Positions 23,277 to 33,979 of a DNA stretch of 64,000 bases are shown piece by piece. This stretch comes from Piscibacillus halophilus (GTDB lineage Bacteria > Bacillota > Bacilli > Bacillales > Alkalibacillaceae): positions 124,001 through 188,000 of the forward strand of contig NZ_FOES01000002.1 of NCBI RefSeq assembly GCF_900110685.1, written 5' to 3'. Numbering within the stretch: the stretch's first letter is position 1; every line of letters starts with the position of its first letter. A program made the translations under genes and the position numbers. The notes below the pieces were generated by a model. It worked only from the letters and a program-made list of their open reading frames with translations. It did no database searches and was not told where the DNA came from.

Positions 23277-24554
23277 TTAATATACAGACGTATAGTCTTT
23301 AGACATATTTTCTAGAATTTCTTTAACACGTTTTAGGAAGTTACCACAAACTAAGCCATCTAAAATTCTATGGTCGAGTGATAGACATAGGTTAACCATA
23401 TCACGTGCTGCAAACATACCATTCATATAAACTGGTTTCTTAACAATTGATTCCACCTGTAAGATGGCTGCTTGAGGGTGATTAATAACTCCCATTGATT
23501 GGACAGAGCCAAACGATCCAGTATTATTAACTGTGAACGTTCCACCTTGCATATCATCATTGGTTAATTTACCTTGACGAGCTTTGTTCGCTAGATCAAC
23601 TATGTCTTTAGCAATACCTTTAATACTTTTCTCATCAGCATTTTTGATCACTGGAACGAATAGTTGATTTTCATTAGCAACTGCAATGGATAAATTAATA
23701 TCTTTCTTCTGAATAATCTTATCTCCAGCCCAAGTACTATTAAGTTCTGGAAACTCTTTAAGGGCTTGAGCGACTGCTTTTACAAAGAATGCAAAGTACG
23801 TAAGTGAGAACCCTTCTTTACGTTTGAAGTCATCTTTTAATTCATCACGTAGGTTAACCAGGTTCGTAACATCGACTTCTACCATCATCCAAGCGTGAGG
23901 AATTTCAGTCTTAGACTTAACCATGTTTTGAGCAATAGCTTTTCGAACGCCCGTCACTGGAATTTCTACATCACCAGCTTGAGTAGTTGGCATTTCTGCC
24001 GGTTTGCTTGGTTGAGTTGGCTGCTGTTGAGTCTGATTAGAAACTTCTTCTTTTGCACCCGTTGTTTGCTCTTGTGTACTAGGTTGCGGGATCTGACCTG
24101 AATCAATTATTTTTTCTAGGTCTTTACGAGTGATTCTTCCTCCACGACCTGAACCTTCAACTTGATTTAAATCAATATCATGCTCTTGAGCTAATCTTAA
24201 TACAGCAGGAGAATAACGTTTTTTCATAGATTGATCTTTCGGCTCATCTGCTTGTTCTTCTTTGTCTTCGGTTTCCGCTTCTGGTGCTTCAGTCTCCACA
24301 TCATTAGCTCCACCTTCAACTTCGATATAACAGATTAATTCACCAACTTCAATCGTGTCTCCCTCTTGTGCAACCAATTCCTTGATAGTACCTGTATATG
24401 AGGACGGAACTTCGGCATTAACTTTATCTGTCATAACTTCTGCAATCGGGTCGTATTTATTAACTTGATCTCCGACACCAACTAACCAAGAACTAATGGT
24501 ACCTTCCGTAACACTCTCTCCCAGCTGTGGCATCGTGATTTTTTCAACACTCAT
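23277..24554 (-). CDS. bkdB: branched-chain 2-oxoacid dehydrogenase E2
   Basis: A 425-residue dihydrolipoyl acyltransferase, the core of the branched-chain 2-oxoacid dehydrogenase complex. Domains in order: lipoyl domain (lipoyl lysine K44 in EVMTDKVNAE), an acidic then glutamine/proline-rich linker, a peripheral-subunit-binding domain (~115-150, YSPAVLRLAQEHDID), a second linker, and the acyltransferase domain ending with the catalytic HRILDG. One lipoyl domain only, as usual for Bacillus. Last gene of the operon. Confidence 0.95.
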   Translation of the reverse strand: MSVEKITMPQLGESVTEGTISSWLVGVGDQVNKYDPIAEVMTDKVNAEVPSSYTGTIKELVAQEGDTIEVGELICYIEVEGGANDVETEAPEAETEDKEEQADEPKDQSMKKRYSPAVLRLAQEHDIDLNQVEGSGRGGRITRKDLEKIIDSGQIPQPSTQEQTTGAKEEVSNQTQQQPTQPSKPAEMPTTQAGDVEIPVTGVRKAIAQNMVKSKTEIPHAWMMVEVDVTNLVNLRDELKDDFKRKEGFSLTYFAFFVKAVAQALKEFPELNSTWAGDKIIQKKDINLSIAVANENQLFVPVIKNADEKSIKGIAKDIVDLANKARQGKLTNDDMQGGTFTVNNTGSFGSVQSMGVINHPQAAILQVESIVKKPVYMNGMFAARDMVNLCLSLDHRILDGLVCGNFLKRVKEILENMSKDYTSVY

Positions 24555-24573
24555 CTCAAAACCTCCTTATCAA

Positions 24574-25557
24574 TTAAAATTCAGCTAAATCACGCATGGC
24601 TTCTTCGACTTTATCAGGATTAACCATAAAGAACTTCTCCATCGTAGGTGCATACGGCATCGCAGGTACATCTGGTCCAGCTAACCTTCTAATAGGAGAA
24701 TCAAGTTCGAATAGGCAATTCTCTGAAATGATCGCTGCTACTTCACTCATAATGCTTCCTTCTTTGTTGTCTTCAGTAACGAGCAGGACTTTTCCAGTCT
24801 TTTTAGCTGCTTCAATAATCGCATCTTGATCAAGAGGATACACTGTTCTTAAATCTAAAATATGAGCAGAAATACCTTCTTCTTCTAATTTTTCAGCAGC
24901 TTGTAATGCGAAATTAACACATAGTCCATACGTAATGACGGTAATATCGTCACCTTCACGCTTCACATCTGCTTTACCTATAGGGAGGACGTAATCGTCA
25001 TCAGGTACTTCTCCTTTTAATAATCGATAAGCACGTTTATGTTCAAAGAATAAAACAGGGTCTTCATCACGAATAGCCGCTTTTAATAATCCTTTAGCAT
25101 CATACGGTGTTGAAGGCATGACAATTTTAAGTCCAGGTTGGTTAGCGAACACCGCTTCAACCGATTGTGAATGATATAATGCACCGTGAACTCCCCCACC
25201 ATAAGGAGCGCGAATCGTAATCGGACAATGCCAGTCATTGTTAGAACGATAACGAATTCTTGCCGCTTCTGAAATAATCTGATTAACCGCAGGCATAATA
25301 AAATCAGCAAACTGCATTTCCGCAATTGGTCTCATACCGTACATGGCAGCTCCAATTCCTACACCCGCTATCGCAGATTCAGCTAAAGGTGTATCGATGA
25401 CACGCTGCTCACCGAATTGATCATAAAGACCTTCAGTTGCTTTAAAAACGCCGCCTTTTTTTCCTACGTCTTCACCTAAAACAAAGACCTTTTCGTCACG
25501 TTCCATTTCTTCACGCATTGCCTGCGTTACAGCTTGAATATACGACTTTACCGGCAT
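24574..25557 (-). CDS. bkdAB: branched-chain 2-oxoacid dehydrogenase E1 beta
   Basis: A 327-residue transketolase-fold subunit pairing with BkdAA to decarboxylate the 2-oxoacids of valine, isoleucine and leucine. Recognised by VLGEDVGKKGGVFKAT, DTPLAESAIAGVGIGAA, IRAPYGGGVHGALYHSQSVE and the C-terminal RLAGPDVPAMPYAP. It begins two bases after bkdAA stops. Confidence 0.95.
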   Translation of the reverse strand: MPVKSYIQAVTQAMREEMERDEKVFVLGEDVGKKGGVFKATEGLYDQFGEQRVIDTPLAESAIAGVGIGAAMYGMRPIAEMQFADFIMPAVNQIISEAARIRYRSNNDWHCPITIRAPYGGGVHGALYHSQSVEAVFANQPGLKIVMPSTPYDAKGLLKAAIRDEDPVLFFEHKRAYRLLKGEVPDDDYVLPIGKADVKREGDDITVITYGLCVNFALQAAEKLEEEGISAHILDLRTVYPLDQDAIIEAAKKTGKVLLVTEDNKEGSIMSEVAAIISENCLFELDSPIRRLAGPDVPAMPYAPTMEKFFMVNPDKVEEAMRDLAEF

Positions 25558-25559
25558 CT

Positions 25560-26564
25560 TTATTCCCCTCCCTCTTCAGCGTAAACATATTTTAATGCGC
25601 TTTCTGCTTCTGCATATGCTGCGTTTTCAGCATAATCTGTCGCTTCATTAATTTCTTTATCTAATTCTTTCTTAAGTTCTTCTTCTTTTTCATCTGTTAG
25701 AATTCCACAGTCTTTTAAATACTGAGAGAAAAATAATACACAATCATTTTTCTTCATCTCTTCAATTTCTTCTTTGTCACGGTAAGCTGTGTGATCATCA
25801 TCACTTGAATGAGCAGTTAGTCGGTTTGTAACAGCTTCAACAAGTGTAGGACCTTCACCATTGACTGCACGTTCCCTTGCTTCTTTTACAACTTTAAACA
25901 CTTCTAAAGGATCATTACCATTTACTTGGTAACCTGGCATACCATAACTTTTAGCACGATCTGCAACTGTTTCCGATGCTACCTGACGTTCTAGCGGGAC
26001 AGAAATGGCATACTTGTTGTTTTCAACCATTGTAATAACTGGCAGTTTATGAACACCTGCAAAGTTTAATCCTTCATGGAAATCTCCTTGGTTTGAAGAA
26101 CCTTCTCCTAATGTTACAAACGATACAAAATCCTTTTCTTCCATTTTCCCCGCTAACGCAACACCTACTGCATGAGGCAATTGAGTAGTAACTGGTGAGG
26201 AACCTGTTAAGATGCGATTTTTCTTCTGACCAAAGTGTCCAGGCATTTGTCGGCCACCAGAGTTCGGATCTTCAGCCTTTGCAAACCCTGATAAAAACAG
26301 TTCTTGAGTAGTCATTCCAAAAGCTAAGACAACACCCATATCACGATAATATGGTGCAGCATAATCCTTGTCACGGTCTAAAGCATATGCAGCTCCGATT
26401 TGAGCAGCTTCTTGACCTTGACAAGAAATTACGAAAGGAATTTTACCTGCACGGTTTAATAACCACATTCTTTCATCAATTTTACGAGCTAATAACATGG
26501 TGCGATACATATCCAATACTTGCTCATCAGTTAAACCTAATTCTTCATGACGATTCTTTCCCAT
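25560..26564 (-). CDS. bkdAA: branched-chain 2-oxoacid dehydrogenase E1 alpha
   Basis: A 334-residue thiamine-diphosphate subunit. The cofactor motif runs from LGEGSSNQGDFHEGLN to VENN, slightly changed from the textbook GDG (GEG here, common in this branch). The phosphorylation-loop equivalent contains RLTAHSSDDD. It sits between lpdV and bkdAB in conserved order. Confidence 0.95.
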   Translation of the reverse strand: MGKNRHEELGLTDEQVLDMYRTMLLARKIDERMWLLNRAGKIPFVISCQGQEAAQIGAAYALDRDKDYAAPYYRDMGVVLAFGMTTQELFLSGFAKAEDPNSGGRQMPGHFGQKKNRILTGSSPVTTQLPHAVGVALAGKMEEKDFVSFVTLGEGSSNQGDFHEGLNFAGVHKLPVITMVENNKYAISVPLERQVASETVADRAKSYGMPGYQVNGNDPLEVFKVVKEARERAVNGEGPTLVEAVTNRLTAHSSDDDHTAYRDKEEIEEMKKNDCVLFFSQYLKDCGILTDEKEEELKKELDKEINEATDYAENAAYAEAESALKYVYAEEGGE

Positions 26565-26584
26565 CTTAAGACCTCCCTTGTTTT

Positions 26585-28006
26585 TTATCCATGAATTTGT
26601 TTACCATCTACAGCTAACGCTGCTTCACCGATCACCTCTGATAATGTTGGATGAGGGTGAATAGAATGTGCGACTTCCCATGGAGTAGCATCTAATACTT
26701 GAGCCAGCCCAGCTTCAGAAATCATATCTGTCACATGTGGACCAATCATATGCACGCCTAATAAATCTTCTGTCTGTTTGTCAGCAATGATTTTTACAAA
26801 ACCATCTTTTTCACCATATACAAGTGCTTTTCCAATTGCTTGGAAAGGGAACTTTCCGACTTTTACATCATAGCCTTGATCTTTGGCTTGTTGTTCTGTA
26901 AGTCCAACGCTTGCAACCTCAGGATTCGAATATATACATGTTGAGATATGATCATAATTAATAGCGAGTGGATTTTCATTCGCTATATGTTCAACAGCTA
27001 CTATCCCTTCGTGAGAAGCAACATGTGCTAACTGCATTCCACCGATGACATCTCCAATGGCATAAATATGAGATTCTTTTGTTTGGTAAAATTGATTGGT
27101 TTTAATAGAACCATTATCAACAATGATATCTGTATTCTCTAAACCTATATTATCGATGTTCGGTGCGCGCCCGACAGATACGAGCATTTTGTCAGCTGTA
27201 AACGATTGCTGCTCACCTTTATATTCAGCCTGAATCGTAACATTTTCACCTTTTTCAAGCGTGTCTGGAAGGACTTTAGCTCCAGTTACAAACTTAATTC
27301 CTTTTTTCTTTAATAATTTCTGAGCCTCTTTTGAAATATCTTCATCCTCAGTTGGAAGGATTCGATCCATATATTCTAATACCGTAACCTCTACACCGAA
27401 GTCTGCAAGCATTGAAGCCCATTCGATACCAATGACTCCTCCACCAACAATTAAGATGGATTCTGGAAGTTCTTCTAATTTTAAGGCGTGATCAGAAGAT
27501 AGGATTAATTCACCATCTAAATCTAATCCTGGTAAAGATTTTGGTTTTGATCCAGTAGCAATAATAACGTTTTTAGGAATAATTATTGTGTTTTCTTCAC
27601 CATCATTACGTTCCACTGATATCGTACCGGCTGTAGGTGAAAAAATACTTGGACCAAGAATTCTACCAAAGCCCTCAAAGACATCAATCTTTCCTTTTTT
27701 CATTAAACCTTGTACGCCTTTATGTAATTGATCTACAATGGATTGTTTACGCTCCTGTACTTTATCAAAGTTTAACGAGGTATTTTCAGTCATAATTCCA
27801 AACTGTTCAGCTTCTTTAGTCTGTTTAAACACTTCAGCACTACGTAATAATGCTTTAGAAGGGATACAGCCGTTGTGTAGGCAGGTCCCTCCTAGATTAC
27901 CTTTTTCCACTATGGCTACTTTCAAGCCTAATTGACTTGCACGTATAGCCGAAACATATCCCCCAGTGCCGCCACCAAGGACGACCACATCATATTCTAG
28001 AGCCAT
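26585..28006 (-). CDS. lpdV: dihydrolipoamide dehydrogenase of the Bkd complex
   Basis: A 473-residue flavoprotein (E3) reoxidising the lipoyl arm of BkdB. The FAD fold is VVLGGGTGGYVSAI; the redox disulfide is C42/C47 in GGTCLHNGCIPS; the NAD fold is ILIVGGGVIGIEWASML; the C-terminal active histidine is in HSIHPHPTLSE. Starting with its ATG three bases before the buk end, it is translated in series with buk. Confidence 0.95.
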   Translation of the reverse strand: MALEYDVVVLGGGTGGYVSAIRASQLGLKVAIVEKGNLGGTCLHNGCIPSKALLRSAEVFKQTKEAEQFGIMTENTSLNFDKVQERKQSIVDQLHKGVQGLMKKGKIDVFEGFGRILGPSIFSPTAGTISVERNDGEENTIIIPKNVIIATGSKPKSLPGLDLDGELILSSDHALKLEELPESILIVGGGVIGIEWASMLADFGVEVTVLEYMDRILPTEDEDISKEAQKLLKKKGIKFVTGAKVLPDTLEKGENVTIQAEYKGEQQSFTADKMLVSVGRAPNIDNIGLENTDIIVDNGSIKTNQFYQTKESHIYAIGDVIGGMQLAHVASHEGIVAVEHIANENPLAINYDHISTCIYSNPEVASVGLTEQQAKDQGYDVKVGKFPFQAIGKALVYGEKDGFVKIIADKQTEDLLGVHMIGPHVTDMISEAGLAQVLDATPWEVAHSIHPHPTLSEVIGEAALAVDGKQIHG

Positions 28007-28008
28007 TT

Positions 28009-29100
28009 CTAAACTCCTTTCTTTTCAATTATATATTCTTTAGGTTTTTCCTGATTTGTTAATACTCTTAACGCTCCTTCTGCAAGCGCTTCCAGTTCGT
28101 TTTCCCCAGGTTTAACCACAACATCGGAGATCCATTCAACATAACTCGTAATATTTTTAACAAAGTCTTCTCCGTATGCTAATCCACCAGTTAGTACAAT
28201 GGCATCTACTTGTCCTTTTAAGACGACACTAGCAGATCCTATTTCTTTAGCAATTTGATAAGCCATCGCATCGTAAATGGCTTTCGCAGTATCATCGCCA
28301 TTTTGGATGCGCTTTTCAACTTCTAGCGCATCCTGTGTTCCTAAATGATCAACTAAACCACCTTGACCAACTAATTTTTTCTTAATGGTTTGTTGATCAT
28401 AATTCCCCGAAAAACACATATCAACAAGTTGCCCTGCTGGCAAGGTACCAGCACGTTCTGGTGAAAAAGGACCTTCTCCATCTAATCCATTGTTTACATC
28501 AATCACTTTACCATGTTGGTGGACTCCAACTGTGATCCCTCCACCCATATGGCAAACGATTAAGTTAGCCTTATCATACGCCTTATTAAGCTCTTCAGCG
28601 ACTTTTCGTGCGACTGATTTTTGGTTTAATGCATGAAAAATACTTTTTCGAGGTAGCTCACTTAATCCACTTATTTTGGCTTTTGGTTGCATTTCATCGA
28701 CGACAACTGGGTCAACAATATATGCTGGAACTTTAAGGTCCTGAGCCATATCATAAGCAATTAAGCCACCTAAATTAGAAGCATGTTCACCGTTATAGCC
28801 GTTTTTCAAATCGTGAACCATGTCTTCAGATACAATATAGGTTCCACCTTCAATTGGTCTAAGCAAACCACCTCTAGCGCATATTGCCTTAAAATCAGAT
28901 AAATTAAATCCTTCCTGCTCTAAAGTATCTAAGATGATATCTTTCCGGAATTTGAATTGATCTATCATCCGATTGAATTGGTTAAGTTCTTTTAAATCAT
29001 GGCGAATTGTTTTCTCAAATATGTTTTTATGATTTTCGAATACACCGATTTTCGTTGATGTAGATCCAGGATTGATGATAAGCATTCGAATGTTTGTCAC
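28009..29100 (-). CDS. buk: butyrate kinase
   Basis: A 363-residue acetokinase-family enzyme that converts branched-chain acyl phosphate to the acid with ATP formation. The nucleotide fold starts with [33 protein letters not shown] and [15 protein letters not shown] are diagnostic. I choose the GTG at 29100, preceded by GGAGG at 8 bases; an in-frame ATG at 29124 overlaps the bcd stop and lacks a ribosome site. It works with Ptb, five genes' worth of operon context agreeing. Confidence 0.94.
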
Positions 29101-29116
29101 TGATGATTCCTCCAAG

Positions 29117-30217
29117 TTACCCATTTCTTCTTGAAATAATACTGTGTTCGTTTTTTAAGAATGTACTACGAGAACGACTAACACTTTCGATACGTTCTTC
29201 AGCCATACGATCAGCTGCAATATGAGTTGGAATATTGTCACGCTTCGAAATTTCAAAGATTCTTTCTAAGCTATCATAAATTTTCTCAATCTGTTTGAAC
29301 GCACGATCTTGATTATACCCATTTAACTCATCAGCAACATTGATGACACCACCAGAGTTAATGACATAATCAGGTGCATATACAATACCTAGCTCATTTA
29401 ACTTCTCTCCGTGTCTTGGTTCAGCTAATTGGTTGTTTGCGGAACCTGCAATGGCTTTCGCTTTTATTTGTGAAAGTGTATCATCATTGATTGTAGCTCC
29501 TAATGCACATGGTGCATAAATGTCACACTCCACACCATAAATATCATCTGGGTCAACAGCATGTGCTCCGAAATCTTCCATGGCACGTTTTACAGAGTCT
29601 TTATTTATATCTGTAACAATAAGCTTCGCACCTTCTTCATGTAGATGTTTACACATATGATAAGCAACATTTCCTACACCTTGAACCGCCACGACTTTCC
29701 CTTCTAATGAGTCACTTCCGAAGGCTTCTTTCGCTGTCGCTTTCATCCCTAAGTAAACACCGTAAGCTGTTGCAGGAGATGGATTACCTGAAGATCCGAA
29801 TTCTGGTGAAATACCTGTTACGTAATCTGTTTCCATGTAAATCGTATCCATATCTTGAACGGTTGTGCCTACATCTTCAGCTGTAATATAGCGACCGTTT
29901 AATCCTTGGATATAACGACCAAATGCTCTAAACATTTCAGGGTTTTTGTCCTTCTTTGGATCCCCTATAATAACTGTTTTACCGCCACCTAGATTTAATC
30001 CAGCAGCTGCGTTTTTATAAGTCATCCCTTTTGCTAAACGTAATGCATCAATAATAGCATCTTCTTCAGAATCATAAGTCCACATACGTGTACCACCTAA
30101 TGCAGGACCTAATGTCGTATCATGAATAGCAATAATCGCTTTTAATCCTGAATTTTTATCTTGGCAAAAAACAACCTGTTCGTAATCTTGATCCTCTAAA
30201 TATTTAAATATTTCCAT
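29117..30217 (-). CDS. bcd: branched-chain amino acid (leucine) dehydrogenase
   Basis: A 366-residue NAD-dependent amino acid dehydrogenase that deaminates leucine, valine and isoleucine to the 2-oxoacids fed to the Bkd complex. The catalytic lysine is in [13 protein letters not shown], the dinucleotide fold [14 protein letters not shown], and ALGGTRMW and [11 protein letters not shown] are typical. First enzyme of the pathway, third gene of the operon. The 22-base gap to ptb shows co-transcription. Confidence 0.95.
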
Positions 30218-30238: not shown

Positions 30239-31153
30239 TTAAGATGATAATAAAGCAAATGCTAAAGAATATATTTTACTCTCTGCCGAATCGGCTCGAG
30301 AAGTTAACACGATTGGAGCCTTTGCCCCACTTATAATACCTGCTACCTTTGCACCAGCAAAATAAGTAAATGATTTATATAGCGTGTTTCCTACCTCAAT
30401 ATAAGGACAAAGCAATACATCTGCGTCACCCGCAACATCTGATTGAATTCCTTTCTGTTGTTTAGATTCTAATGATATTGCGTTATCAAACGCTAATGGT
30501 CCATCTACAATACAATTTGTTATTTGACCACGTTTTTGCATTTGAGATAGGACTGCCGCATCAATAGATGCTTGCATAGCTGGATTCACAATTTCTACAG
30601 CAGCTAGTGGTGCCACTTTTGGTTTTTCAATCCCTAGCTTATTTACAACATCAACCGCGTTTTGTATAATTTGCACCTTTTCTTCCAAGCTAGGAGCTAT
30701 ATTCATACCTGCATCTGTTAAAAATAATAGTCGATTGCGATCCTTCATTTCGAACATAGCAACGTGCGAAAGAATGCGACCGTTTCTGAGGCCTGAACCC
30801 TTTTTTAGAACAGCCTTTAAAACAATTTTAGTTGCAACATTACCTTTCATTAATATATCAGATCGCTCTTCAGAAACAGATTGAACTGCTTTATCGACTG
30901 CATTTTCAACAGACGTAGCATGGTGTAGCGTAATTTTTTCATTGTTCAAATCTAAACCAATTTCTTCAGCGGCATTTGTAATCTCTTCTATATTTCCAAA
31001 TAATTTAAAACCCGCTAAATTGCGACCAATTCCATCTTTTACAGCTTTTAATGTCTCAACGTTAGTGGCTTCGGCAACGGCTACAACTTTTTTCTCACGC
31101 ATATTACAAAGTTGTTCGACCAATCCATCTAATGTCATTTCTTTTGTTTTCAT
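30239..31153 (-). CDS. ptb: phosphate butyryltransferase
   Basis: A 304-residue phosphotransacylase that swaps CoA for phosphate on branched acyl-CoA, giving the substrate of Buk. Family signatures: DILMKGNVATKIVLKAVL, LLFLTDAGMNIAPSLEEK and IVDGPLAFDNAIS. It begins only 8 bases after the bkdR stop, leaving no room for a promoter of its own between the genes. Confidence 0.94.
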   Translation of the reverse strand: MKTKEMTLDGLVEQLCNMREKKVVAVAEATNVETLKAVKDGIGRNLAGFKLFGNIEEITNAAEEIGLDLNNEKITLHHATSVENAVDKAVQSVSEERSDILMKGNVATKIVLKAVLKKGSGLRNGRILSHVAMFEMKDRNRLLFLTDAGMNIAPSLEEKVQIIQNAVDVVNKLGIEKPKVAPLAAVEIVNPAMQASIDAAVLSQMQKRGQITNCIVDGPLAFDNAISLESKQQKGIQSDVAGDADVLLCPYIEVGNTLYKSFTYFAGAKVAGIISGAKAPIVLTSRADSAESKIYSLAFALLSS

Positions 31154-31161
31154 GGTGTTAT

Positions 31162-33210
31162 TTAATTATCCTTTCCGATGTTATATTTTTTCATTTTGTA
31201 ATATAAGTTTCTTATGGATATATTTAGTTGTTTAGCTGTTTTAGACTTTATGAAGTTATTCTTTTCAAGTGTTTCTAACAATAACTGTCTCTCAAACTCA
31301 TCTAATGCTTCTTGCAATGGAATGATTTCGTCATCAGACGTTTCATAAAAAATATCTACGTCATCTAATGACGTTTTTCTTAAAGGTGGAAGATGGTCTT
31401 CATGAATGACTTCTTCTCCTAAAGCCATGTTAATCATAGCTCGGCCAATTATATTTTCTAATTCTCTTACATTACCCGGATAATTATATTTTTTCAGTTT
31501 ATCCAGTGCTTCATTAGAAATTCCTTTGACATTTCGACCATAATTTTCATTTAAATGACTTAATAAATGGTCAATTAATGGCTTCAAATCCTCTAATCTT
31601 TCCCTTAATGGAGGGATGTTAATTGGAAATTTGTTCAAACGATAGTAAAGCTGTTCGTTAAACTCTTGAGTCATGATAGCTTTCTCTAAATTAACATTAG
31701 TAGAGGCAATAATTCTAACTTCAACAAATATTGGTTCTTGTCCATTAACTCTTATGATGGTTTGATCCTCAATGACCCTAAGAATTTTAGATTGAAGACT
31801 TTGAGAAAGATCACCAATTTCATCTAAAAAGATACTGCCTCCATGAGCTTCTTCAAAATACCCATTTCTTTGCTCAGGTGCACCTTGTTCATCCCCGAAT
31901 AATAACTTTTCCAATACCTCTTCATCATACGACGCACAATTAACCCGAATAAATTTCATATGTTTTCGATTACTTTCATTATGAATCGCATGTGCTATTA
32001 ATTCTTTACCAGTACCAGGCTCGCCTCTTAATAGTACATTAGTCGGTGATTTAGCTCCTACTTTAGCTTGTTCTAATGCCAATTTCATATCACTTGAATG
32101 TGCCACAATGTCATCAAAAGTATACTTAGCTTCTAAATCACGTATAATTTGCCTAGCTCGTTTTAATTCAGAAGTTAACGATTCAATTTCAGATAAATCA
32201 TGAATCACTCCCACACTACCTTTTAACTTTTCATCAACTATAATGGGAGCAACATTAACTAAAACATCTCGTTTATTTGGTCCTACCTTCATTCTAGCCC
32301 CACGAACCGCTTGACGCGTTTCAAGAACTCTTAAATGCATACTTTCTCCTTCAGATATATCCGCGGTCGCCGGTTTACCAATAACATCTTTTTCAGTTAA
32401 ACCTGTAATTTTTGTATAGGCAGGATTAATCATTAGCCCATGACCCGTTTCATCCACAACTGATATCGCTTCTTCACTTGATTGAATTATCGCTTCTAAC
32501 ATAACCTGGATGTCTTTAAGGTTCGTTATTTCCTCAGCCAAGCTGACAACTTCCGTTATATCTTTAAATACTGAAAAAGCACCTAATAGATCACCTGATT
32601 CGGTTATTAAAGGAATGCGTGTTGTAATAACCTTTTTTTCATTAGATAGTGTTAAATGTTGATTAACTTCTTGTTCTCTTGTGTTTAATACATGCGGTAA
32701 TCTAGATTCAGGTATGACATCTAAAATCCTTCGACCAAGCATATCACTTTTTTGAATATCTAATATATGACAAGCTGAATCGTTCACAAATGTGACGGTC
32801 TCATCATTATTGATGACAATCATCCCATCATGCACTGAATTCAGGACTAATTCTCTTATTGATGTAGCTTTTTTTATTTGGTCAACTAGTGATTCTTTCT
32901 CATCTAATAACTGATAAATAACATGGGCAATTGTACCTGGAATCAACACACATTGATTTGGTTTAATTTCCATCAAATGCTCGAAAACACCTTGATCACC
33001 GGTTGCCTCAACTATTATATCAACAGATGAATCAATCATGTCCTGATAATCGGTATATGTATTTATATTTATTTTTTTAGCTATTTCAAGTCCAGGTGCT
33101 TGTGAATTAATATCCGCTACAGCTTTTAGGTTCAACATATCAAATTGTTGAAAAAGCTTTAAAATCGCGGTACCACCTTTACCTGCCCCTACTATAACAA
33201 CATTTTGCAT
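31162..33210 (-). CDS. bkdR: BkdR-type regulator with degenerate GAFTGA loop
   Basis: A ~682-residue regulator of the bkd operon. In order: an N-terminal Rossmann-like segment (VVIVGAGKGGTAILKLF, DIIVEATGDQGVF), two PAS domains (~125-225 and ~240-340), an AAA+ domain (Walker A RGEPGTGKE near 398-406, Walker B GGSIFLDEIG near 460-469) and a Fis-type helix-turn-helix (SKTAKQLNISIRNLYYKMKK). Between LFG and Walker B the text is DEQGAPEQRNGYFEEAH, where sigma-54 activators carry GAFTGA; that loop is missing. So it may not engage sigma-54. ATG at 33210 has AGGTGG upstream; a GTG nine bases earlier is possible. Confidence 0.85.
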   Translation of the reverse strand: MQNVVIVGAGKGGTAILKLFQQFDMLNLKAVADINSQAPGLEIAKKININTYTDYQDMIDSSVDIIVEATGDQGVFEHLMEIKPNQCVLIPGTIAHVIYQLLDEKESLVDQIKKATSIRELVLNSVHDGMIVINNDETVTFVNDSACHILDIQKSDMLGRRILDVIPESRLPHVLNTREQEVNQHLTLSNEKKVITTRIPLITESGDLLGAFSVFKDITEVVSLAEEITNLKDIQVMLEAIIQSSEEAISVVDETGHGLMINPAYTKITGLTEKDVIGKPATADISEGESMHLRVLETRQAVRGARMKVGPNKRDVLVNVAPIIVDEKLKGSVGVIHDLSEIESLTSELKRARQIIRDLEAKYTFDDIVAHSSDMKLALEQAKVGAKSPTNVLLRGEPGTGKELIAHAIHNESNRKHMKFIRVNCASYDEEVLEKLLFGDEQGAPEQRNGYFEEAHGGSIFLDEIGDLSQSLQSKILRVIEDQTIIRVNGQEPIFVEVRIIASTNVNLEKAIMTQEFNEQLYYRLNKFPINIPPLRERLEDLKPLIDHLLSHLNENYGRNVKGISNEALDKLKKYNYPGNVRELENIIGRAMINMALGEEVIHEDHLPPLRKTSLDDVDIFYETSDDEIIPLQEALDEFERQLLLETLEKNNFIKSKTAKQLNISIRNLYYKMKKYNIGKDN

Positions 33211-33227
33211 ATCATCCACCTACACCC

Positions 33228-33241
33228 TGCAAAAATTTGCA
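33228..33241. promoter_or_regulatory. 14-bp palindrome in the bkdR leader
   Basis: TGCAAAAATTTGCA, two perfect 6-base arms, lies between the bkdR promoter and start codon. It could be an autoregulatory site for BkdR or another regulator. Only position and symmetry support this. Confidence 0.4.
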
Positions 33242-33248
33242 CACTTTA

Positions 33249-33277
33249 ATGATAATGTAAGCGCTTTAGGATTGCAA
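33249..33277 (-). promoter_or_regulatory. SigmaA promoter of bkdR operon with overlapping cre-like site
   Basis: Minus strand TTGCAA (33272-33277), 17 bases, TATCAT (33249-33254). Between the two boxes lies TGTAAGCGCTTTAG (33256-33269, plus strand), matching 12 of 14 positions of the CcpA cre consensus TGWAAGCGCTTWCA. CcpA binding there would block polymerase, giving glucose repression of branched-chain amino acid use. Confidence 0.65.
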
Positions 33278-33310
33278 GATATTTTCATTTTTTTTATTAG
33301 AAAATCATGG

Positions 33311-33316
33311 TATACT
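33311..33316 (+). promoter_or_regulatory. extended -10 promoter of yqzF
   Basis: TGGTATACT gives TATACT with the TG of an extended -10; the -35 region is only T-rich. It lies 30 bases before the yqzF start, divergent from bkdR. Confidence 0.45.
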
Positions 33317-33345
33317 ACATAAGGACATAGAAAAGGGGTCTAAAC

Positions 33346-33582
33346 ATGAGAATCATTGCATTTTTAGTTTTACTTATACCTGGTATCCTTTCCGTTTATG
33401 GAATCAAACTCATACGTGATTCATTTTTCGGTATTGTTGAGTCCATTTTTATAAACGTTTTCGTGCAATTATTTGCAGGTATTTTATTTGTTATTGTTGG
33501 GATAGGATTTGTTGGAGGATACCTTTTACATAGAGATCGTAAGAAAAACAAAACTAAAGGTCATTTTGAAACTAAAAAATAA
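33346..33582 (+). CDS. yqzF: DUF2627 membrane protein (YqzF)
   Basis: A 78-residue protein with two membrane helices (IIAFLVLLIPGILSVYGI and FVQLFAGILFVIVGIGFVGGYLL) and a basic C-terminal tail. Size, composition and position beside bkdR match YqzF. A good AAAGGGG ribosome site precedes ATG. The function is unknown; it is probably an integral membrane protein. Confidence 0.8.
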   Translation: MRIIAFLVLLIPGILSVYGIKLIRDSFFGIVESIFINVFVQLFAGILFVIVGIGFVGGYLLHRDRKKNKTKGHFETKK

Positions 33583-33979
33583 CCTATGTGGATAAAGAAG
33601 AAATCCCGTATAACATTTATTATAAGGCCATATGTACGGGAGGTTTTTCAAATTAGGAAAGACGTTTACGAAAATTACTTTGACTTACTTGAAGAAAATA
33701 GAATTTAACATACACAATTTCTGTTGTTTCTCTTGGAGAAAACTCTTTCAGTTCAATCGGAAACATCTTGATTCAAGGAAGACTAGAAGGTCTTGTAAAC
33801 GTGGCGGAGTTGCTCCTGAACGTAGGATAAGAACTAGTCCAGGTTAAATACTCTTGAGGAGGAATGGAAATATCATTCGTTGTAAAAATGAACTGGGGAG
33901 AACTACTGCTTTTGAAATTGAATGTTCCGTTTAGTTAAAAAAGAAATTGTTATTAGGGTTGTCTTTGTTGAAATTATTA
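33583..33979 (+). pseudogene. 397-base stretch with possible decayed coding fragments
   Basis: No intact gene is supported. Several short frames have protein-like texture: ATG at 33586 runs 40 codons and ends DVYENYFDLLEENRI; another frame reads SVVSLGENSFSSIGNI then QGRLEGLVNVAELLLNVG before a stop at about 33828. They are in different phases and lack ribosome sites, as expected of a frameshifted, degrading gene. I could not identify the parent family. Chance is the alternative. Confidence 0.3.

Follow-up and report, generated by a model that had tools for sequence, protein, structure and literature searches.

The window analyzed here, a 64,000-nucleotide stretch of the Piscibacillus halophilus genome, carries bkdR and the bkd operon (Table 1), whose genes (ptb, bcd, buk, lpd, bkdAA, bkdAB and bkdB) are named here after the B. 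subtilis gene order. The regulator combines a Rossmann-like domain, two PAS domains, an AAA+ domain and a Fis-type helix-turn-helix, and is encoded upstream of ptb-bcd-buk-lpd-bkd, as found for BkdR orthologues. Its reading frame (31162-33219, minus strand) specifies 685 amino acids when counted from the GTG at 33219; the true start is probably the ATG at 33210, as relatives start at the same MQNV.

Table 1. Features of the bkdR-bkd region of P. halophilus, in positions of the window.
Feature	Position	Strand	Basis
bkdR: Rossmann-like N-terminus, two PAS, AAA+ without GAFTGA loop, Fis-type HTH	31162..33210	-	ORF list, Pfam, alignment
Stretch LFGDEQGAPEQRNGYFEEAH carrying the shortened L1 loop	31843..31902	-	ORF translation and alignment
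bkdR-ptb gap, 8 bp, too small for the -24/-12 promoter of loop-intact relatives	31154..31161	-	Alignment and gap survey
ptb, first structural gene of the bkd operon	30239..31153	-	ORF
Remaining bkd operon: bcd, buk, lpd, bkdAA, bkdAB, bkdB	23277..30217	-	ORFs
-35 hexamer TTGCAA, predicted sigma-A promoter	33272..33277	-	Conserved layout
cre-like site TAAAGCGCTTACA within the 17-nt promoter spacer	33256..33268	-	Pattern match
-10 hexamer TATCAT, predicted sigma-A promoter	33249..33254	-	Conserved layout
BkdR-type box TGCAAATTTTTGCA (TGCA-N6-TGCA), predicted to be an operator covering the transcription start; begins 7 nt past the -10	33228..33241	-	Position and conservation
Second perfect BkdR-type box, possible auxiliary operator	33463..33478	+	Within divergent 78-aa ORF 33346-33582 (+), 236 bp upstream of the first

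In the alignment with orthologues the AAA+ domain of Piscibacillus BkdR reads KLLFGDEQGAPEQRNGYFEEAHGGSIFLDEIGD, and the segment between LFG and Walker B is DEQGAPEQRNGYFEEAH. Loop-intact orthologues read approximately ELFGYEEGAF[ST]GA..GGK.G.FEEA..GSIFLDEIGE at the equivalent stretch; compared to these, five residues are absent from the Piscibacillus loop and the remainder of GAFTGA is replaced. GAF[ST]GA is present in BkdR of Oceanobacillus, Virgibacillus and Ornithinibacillus, and the shortened loop (PEQ..GY[FL]EEAH) is common to Filobacillus milosensis, Aquisalibacillus elongatus, Tenuibacillus multivorans and Piscibacillus salipiscarius. As it recurs in the records of these relatives, a sequencing error is unlikely. 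The original prediction, that the GAFTGA loop had been deleted from a BkdR with intact Walker A, Walker B and Fis-type helix, is borne out on all of these points.

In place of the FREDLYYRL segment, Piscibacillus BkdR has FNEQLYYRL, with the first Arg changed to N and the second kept; we take these two Arg to be the R-fingers (R162 and R168 of PspF). Among the traits of sigma-54-dependent bEBPs, the protein has the AAA+ domain of sigma-54 activators (PF00158, E 6.3e-53), and lacks the GAFTGA loop and the full pair of R-finger Arg. The predicted structure (pTM 0.40, 11 sequences) supports an AAA+ fold resembling the structures of NtrC1, FleQ and FlrC (TMt ~0.9), and leaves the domain arrangement unsupported. 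The Rossmann-like domain at the N-terminus (32920-33210, minus strand) contains GAGKGG, matches PF01113 (E 3.5e-6) and PF01408 (E 5.8e-6), and is conserved across nine aligned rows; it might act as a nicotinamide cofactor sensor.

A search for rpoN in the P. halophilus genome (a draft of 83 contigs, 99.98% complete), which had been proposed with the original prediction, gave no match to either PF04552 or PF04963, and B. subtilis was positive in both control searches. Absence of rpoN is a minority state, with PF04552 above the cut-off in 302 of the 348 sampled genomes of the order. BkdR is the sole convincing bEBP of the genome: the best PF00158 match has an E-value of 7.2e-54 and the next, to a frame of 821 residues, 5.2e-8. 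The 8-bp gap before ptb contains no -24/-12 promoter. A weak promoter-like match (ATGAAA-18-GATAAT, 9/12; 31194-31165, minus strand), at chance level for the region, is located in the 3' end of bkdR, directly ahead of ptb.

Loop state, operon arrangement and rpoN among BkdR orthologues

A BkdR N-terminal profile was searched in 61, 80 and 80 genomes, of which 42, 67 and 76 matched, and the survey set comprised 175 BkdR orthologues, five of them from named loci (L009-L013). Dropped were G005 (split match), the second weak matches of G174 and G224, the sole weak match of G080, matches in which the start of the N-terminal domain was missing (G060, G066, G088, G036, G041, G263, G304, G241, G172, G222, G147 and G200), and G340 (truncated bkdR). 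The other named loci, out of 17, were left out as duplicates of genomes with a G handle (L005-L008) or as partial or distant (L014-L021). We defined an intact loop as G[AS]F[ST]GA, so that the GSFTGA of G137 was scored as intact, and scored GAFVGA, GAFEGA, GAFPGA, GAYPGV and EDAFPFA as altered. The loop is intact in 136 of the 175 orthologues and lost or altered (below: lost) in 39.

Loop state coincides with the distance between bkdR and ptb. Among rows with a measurable gap, the 116 loop-intact ones span 82-214 bp and the 35 loop-lost ones -17 to 69 bp, without overlap; the gap was unmeasurable in 20 intact and three lost rows, and the frame-broken draft G015 was excluded from gap and promoter counts. 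A -24/-12 site, defined by a GG-N10-GC core and at least 10 of 12 consensus letters, is present in 114 of the 116 intact gaps (the exceptions are G341 and G212), versus none of the 28 lost gaps with readable sequence; in seven further lost rows the genes overlap. On a BkdR tree from which the loop columns were removed, loop state changes at least seven times, six of them forced by starred branches. This is a quick tree with long-branch warnings, and its change counts do not distinguish gains from losses; that a whole loop was regained seems unlikely. In six out of six independent pairs the gap differs in the same direction with loop state (sign test, p 0.031), a value from the enlarged sample in which 80 genomes chosen by family were added after the first set. 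The first set (107 rows) gave five changes and four out of four gap pairs, too few for significance.

The association with rpoN is looser. Intact loops go with rpoN in 134 rows and lost loops with its absence in 29, against ten rows with a lost loop and rpoN and two with an intact loop without it; here G015 (82% complete) and G311 are entered as rpoN-less, L013 is entered as rpoN-positive without a search, and the two intact, rpoN-less rows are the incomplete genomes G174 (80%) and G224 (62%). In nine of the ten loop-lost genomes with rpoN the gene was confirmed by PF04963; for Sediminibacillus massiliensis, the remaining one, the support is a match to PF04552. Neither sigma-54 family was found in Filobacillus (G010), Tenuibacillus (G021) or G011. 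On the tree, approximately 3.4 of six independent pairs agree in rpoN and loop state and none is opposite (median p 0.125, not significant). Loop loss follows the operon arrangement more closely than it follows rpoN.

Aquisalibacillus (G009) has rpoN and the shortened loop together. In an rpoN tree of 23 rows its RpoN groups apart from the main family clade, with one of two copies of G018, and as it does so the genome is weak evidence for loop loss before rpoN loss; this rpoN may have been regained or moved sideways, and sideways movement of rpoN is possible. G018, a family-1 genome, has two rpoN genes, and it is the copy at locus L002 that groups with the lone rpoN of Aquisalibacillus. A putative rpoN remnant in P. 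salipiscarius (G015; PF04552, E 2.5e-4) was rejected: it overlaps a frame that by eye looks to be of LacI type, the RpoN of G009 gives no tblastn match in the stretch, and PF04963 is absent. The weak PF04552 match of G311 (4.7e-4) was similarly not accepted as a remnant, with PF04963 absent there as well.

Several genomes resemble stages between the two states. In family f6, where rpoN is present in all 13 rows, eight rows of genus g17 have intact loops and gaps of 82-105 bp, three rows of genus g60 have point-changed loops (GAFVGA with an 18-bp gap, GAFEGA with 14 bp and GAFPGA with 9 bp), and in two rows of genus g109, whose gaps measure 11 and 3 bp, the loop is deleted. G341 keeps GAFSGA without a -24/-12 site, and in its starred sister Sediminibacillus massiliensis the loop is deleted and the gap is 12 bp. 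In G202 (EDAFPFA) a 69-bp gap retains a box and a cre-like site, without a -24/-12 site. Both R-finger Arg are absent from the 12 rows of family f39, and G033 and G239, of one genus, show erosion of residues in the Walker motifs and in sensors I and II; these two keep a perfect box, with no promoter found above threshold.

Other parts of the protein are retained in the loop-lost rows: RNLYYK of the recognition helix in 39/39, a Walker A ending in GKE in 37/39 and the sensor II segment in 36/39. Except for the draft G015, every one of these rows has a full-length frame, and dN/dS in nine loop-lost pairs is at most 0.34 where defined.

Predicted promoter and box upstream of bkdR

In the region 31100-33600 bare promoter-like hexamers are not above chance (8 found versus 12.1 in shuffles), and the predicted bkdR promoter is singled out by its conservation together with the box, not by hexamer score. 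In the first set the promoter-then-box layout was present in 32/35 loop-lost and 49/71 loop-intact rows, against totals of 0.01 and 0.04 expected from base shuffles. In the full set, with a slightly looser promoter score, it was present in 35/38 lost and 100/135 intact rows, and was not found in the other 35 of these 135. Counted from the -10, the box begins after 7-12 nt in lost rows and after 3-13 nt in intact rows, most often after 7 nt. In intact genomes the same type of box is also present within the bkdR-ptb gap, ahead of the cre and the -24/-12 site, the expected place for an enhancer. With a loop lost from an otherwise bEBP-like protein, and a predicted sigma-A type promoter and regulator box at its putative target, Piscibacillus BkdR shows, by sequence, two characteristics of the GAFTGA-less bEBPs that act at housekeeping promoters (TyrR/VpsR/NtrC type).

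Additional boxes are less regular. The 12 readable loop-lost rows of the Piscibacillus family have no second box (at most one mismatch) within approximately 240 nt upstream, and several other lost lineages have a second nearby box, mostly overlapping the -35 or spacer or beside the -10. Further upstream of the promoter a box with at most one mismatch is found in 6/38 lost versus 21/135 intact rows. The perfect 16-mer has exactly two copies in the 3-Mb Piscibacillus genome, both within 252 bp at bkdR; with one mismatch there are 12 sites genome-wide, not far above the 7 of a reversed-pattern control. The second perfect box has near-matches in several loop-lost relatives and is not conserved in most of the rows compared (the lost rows and 17 of the 136 intact ones). 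Looping between the two boxes is only a suggestion.

A cre-like site is located in the bkdR promoter in 25/35 lost layouts versus 0/100 intact layouts, by a looser pattern that was drawn up after viewing the sequences of families f39 and f30; by the strict pattern it is present in 11/35 lost layouts. The strict pattern is found in the ptb gap of 68/116 intact rows. The promoter spacer AGGAAAAGGCTTTCAT is nearly invariant across the f39 and f30 loci (e.g., L044, L067) and is not a textbook cre; it is possibly a variant CcpA site.

Proposed change of role of BkdR

The original prediction had left two roles for a BkdR without the loop, that of a SigmaA-type activator or that of a repressor. With no rpoN found, no loop and no room for a -24/-12 promoter, independence of BkdR from sigma-54 is well supported by the sequences. 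Between the two roles we favor the repressor, because the conserved box begins 7 nt past the -10 and no upstream box is present in the 12 readable loop-lost relatives of the family. A box in such a place (7-12 nt past the -10) should act as a block to polymerase and not recruit it, and the loop-lost BkdR is therefore read as a self-repressor. It is quite likely, in our judgment, that BkdR has lost its role as a sigma-54 activator and now represses its own sigma-A promoter, which would drive the whole bkd operon. The assignment of the box to BkdR follows from its position and conservation, and we infer from the sequences the binding and repression, the nature of the inducer, the double role of the ancestor and the sequence in which the changes took place.

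In the proposed course of events, the ancestral BkdR would have had two jobs. From boxes in the bkdR-ptb gap it would have activated a -24/-12 promoter before ptb, and at its own sigma-A promoter it would have bound a box that covers the start site. As most loop-intact BkdRs carry the box at about the same place, the comparison suggests that self-repression is ancestral. The ptb promoter would then have vanished and ptb closed up on bkdR, such that the operon came to be read from the self-repressed bkdR promoter, which may have gained a cre-like site in its spacer and with it catabolite control. After this fusion the sigma-54 contact loop would have had no purpose and been deleted, and rpoN would often have been lost as well. 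Repression is presumably relieved when the PAS and Rossmann domains at the N-terminus sense a branched-chain amino- or keto-acid signal.

The order of promoter loss, loop decay and rpoN loss would fit the candidate stages that coexist among the orthologues: a lost promoter in G341, point-changed loops in G071, G108 and G136, deleted loops in G236 and G258, lost R-fingers in f39 and an eroded ATPase in G033 and G239. G341 (L075) and G212 (L163), which have an intact loop without a full -24/-12 site, with only the -24 half retained in G212, are candidates for the first stage of the switch. In G340 (L187) the bkdR frame stops just past Walker A (423 aa) and abuts ptb (-7 bp), which may represent another route to loss of the sigma-54 promoter. 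Loss of an R-finger Arg, fusion of the operon, recurrence in other lineages and the apparently ancestral self-repression layout all go beyond the original prediction.

A loopless BkdR could instead recruit or stimulate the housekeeping polymerase as a sigma-A (sigma-70-type) activator, like the NtrC proteins of R. capsulatus and Caulobacter at some promoters. Activation of sigma-70 promoters by GAFTGA-less NtrC proteins is reported (PMC10274813), and the retention of Walker A (37/39) and the sensor II segment (36/39), the second perfect box 236 bp upstream in Piscibacillus and the upstream boxes of 6/38 lost rows would fit such a role. However, the box that the lost rows share is in a blocking rather than a recruiting place, and the 12 readable family genomes lack a box up to approximately 240 nt upstream, while elsewhere additional boxes mostly overlap the -35, spacer or -10 region. 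G033 and G239, in turn, keep a perfect box (with no above-threshold promoter found) despite their eroded Walker and sensor residues. On balance we consider an activator unlikely.

That BkdR is a decaying, non-functional leftover of rpoN loss is very unlikely: the R-finger positions are changed in Piscibacillus and many relatives, and the truncated bkdR abutting ptb in G340 points the same way, but the full-length frames, the dN/dS values, the invariant RNLYYK and the preserved predicted operator argue against decay, and rpoN in ten loop-lost genomes indicates that loop loss is not mere fallout of rpoN loss. We give hardly any credence to an rpoN gene missed by the draft assembly and a shortened loop still working with sigma-54. 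The 83 contigs and the co-occurrence of rpoN and shortened loop in Aquisalibacillus would allow for it, but the completeness of the genome with two sigma-54 families absent, the 8-bp gap without a -24/-12 site and the same double absence in Filobacillus, Tenuibacillus and G011 speak against it.

For the orthologues as a whole, we lean towards the view that independent conversions of this one regulator, from an activator working with sigma-54 to a repressor of its own sigma-A promoter, took place about six times or more. Each conversion would have followed the same path of promoter loss, fusion, relocation of the cre in some lineages, and stepwise erosion of loop, R-fingers and Walker residues.

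Relation to known regulators and meaning for sigma-54 control

TyrR acts mainly as a repressor. Francke et al. (PMC3162934) list it, with DhaR, HupR, VpsR and YplP, among bEBP relatives whose departure from sigma-54, established or probable, came about through an altered GAFTGA, and they link two species without sigma-54 to altered loops. Similar to these proteins, Piscibacillus BkdR has a bEBP-type AAA+ domain with the loop deleted or altered; in contrast to these separate regulators, a single orthologous regulator lost the loop several times, alongside operon fusion and loss of the target promoter.

The NtrC proteins of Caulobacter and R. capsulatus are GAFTGA-less and act at sigma-70 promoters, and the L1 deletion covers GAFTGA, as in BkdR; Caulobacter NtrC is reported to be both activator and repressor (PMC10274813, PMC12421884). 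NtrC is a two-component response regulator, whereas Piscibacillus BkdR is a PAS/Rossmann sensor. Caulobacter NtrC has dozens of binding sites in the presence of sigma-54, compared to two perfect boxes at its own locus for BkdR in a genome in which sigma-54 was not found.

BkdR of B. thuringiensis is a sigma-54 activator of ptb with a conserved GAFTGA and a TTGGCACGGTATTTGCT promoter (PMC4428206), and in B. subtilis BkdR the fourth GAFTGA residue is changed from T to S (PMC3162934). In both, the orthologous regulator is located upstream of ptb and the bkd genes, as in Piscibacillus, but unlike B. thuringiensis, Piscibacillus has neither the TTGGCACGGTATTTGCT promoter nor GAFTGA. The proposed ancestral dual state of BkdR resembles that of its B. 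thuringiensis paralogue SoxR, which is reported to be a sigma-54 activator with negative autoregulation at a promoter outside the sigma-54 class (PMC4941409). SoxR keeps its sigma-54 targets and, in the bEBP alignment of PMC4428206, also GAFTGA, which Piscibacillus BkdR lacks. In the part of the literature that was searched (BkdR/SigL, GAFTGA, rpoN loss, bkdR autoregulation) we found no account of GAFTGA loss in BkdR. GAFTGA-less bEBPs are already known, and it is the repeated conversion tied to operon fusion that appears to be new.

Activators of sigma-54 are usually treated as mechanistically bound to this factor; the BkdR locus and its relatives look like a replicated natural escape. Fusion of the target operon to the regulator's own repressed promoter would keep the bkd pathway under BkdR without ATP-driven activation, and if this is true, leaving sigma-54 control in this way would help to make sigma-54 dispensable. 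The loss of a whole sigma factor then becomes a testable evolutionary sequence. If the reading holds, the label "sigma-54-dependent" would misname 39 of the 175 BkdR orthologues.
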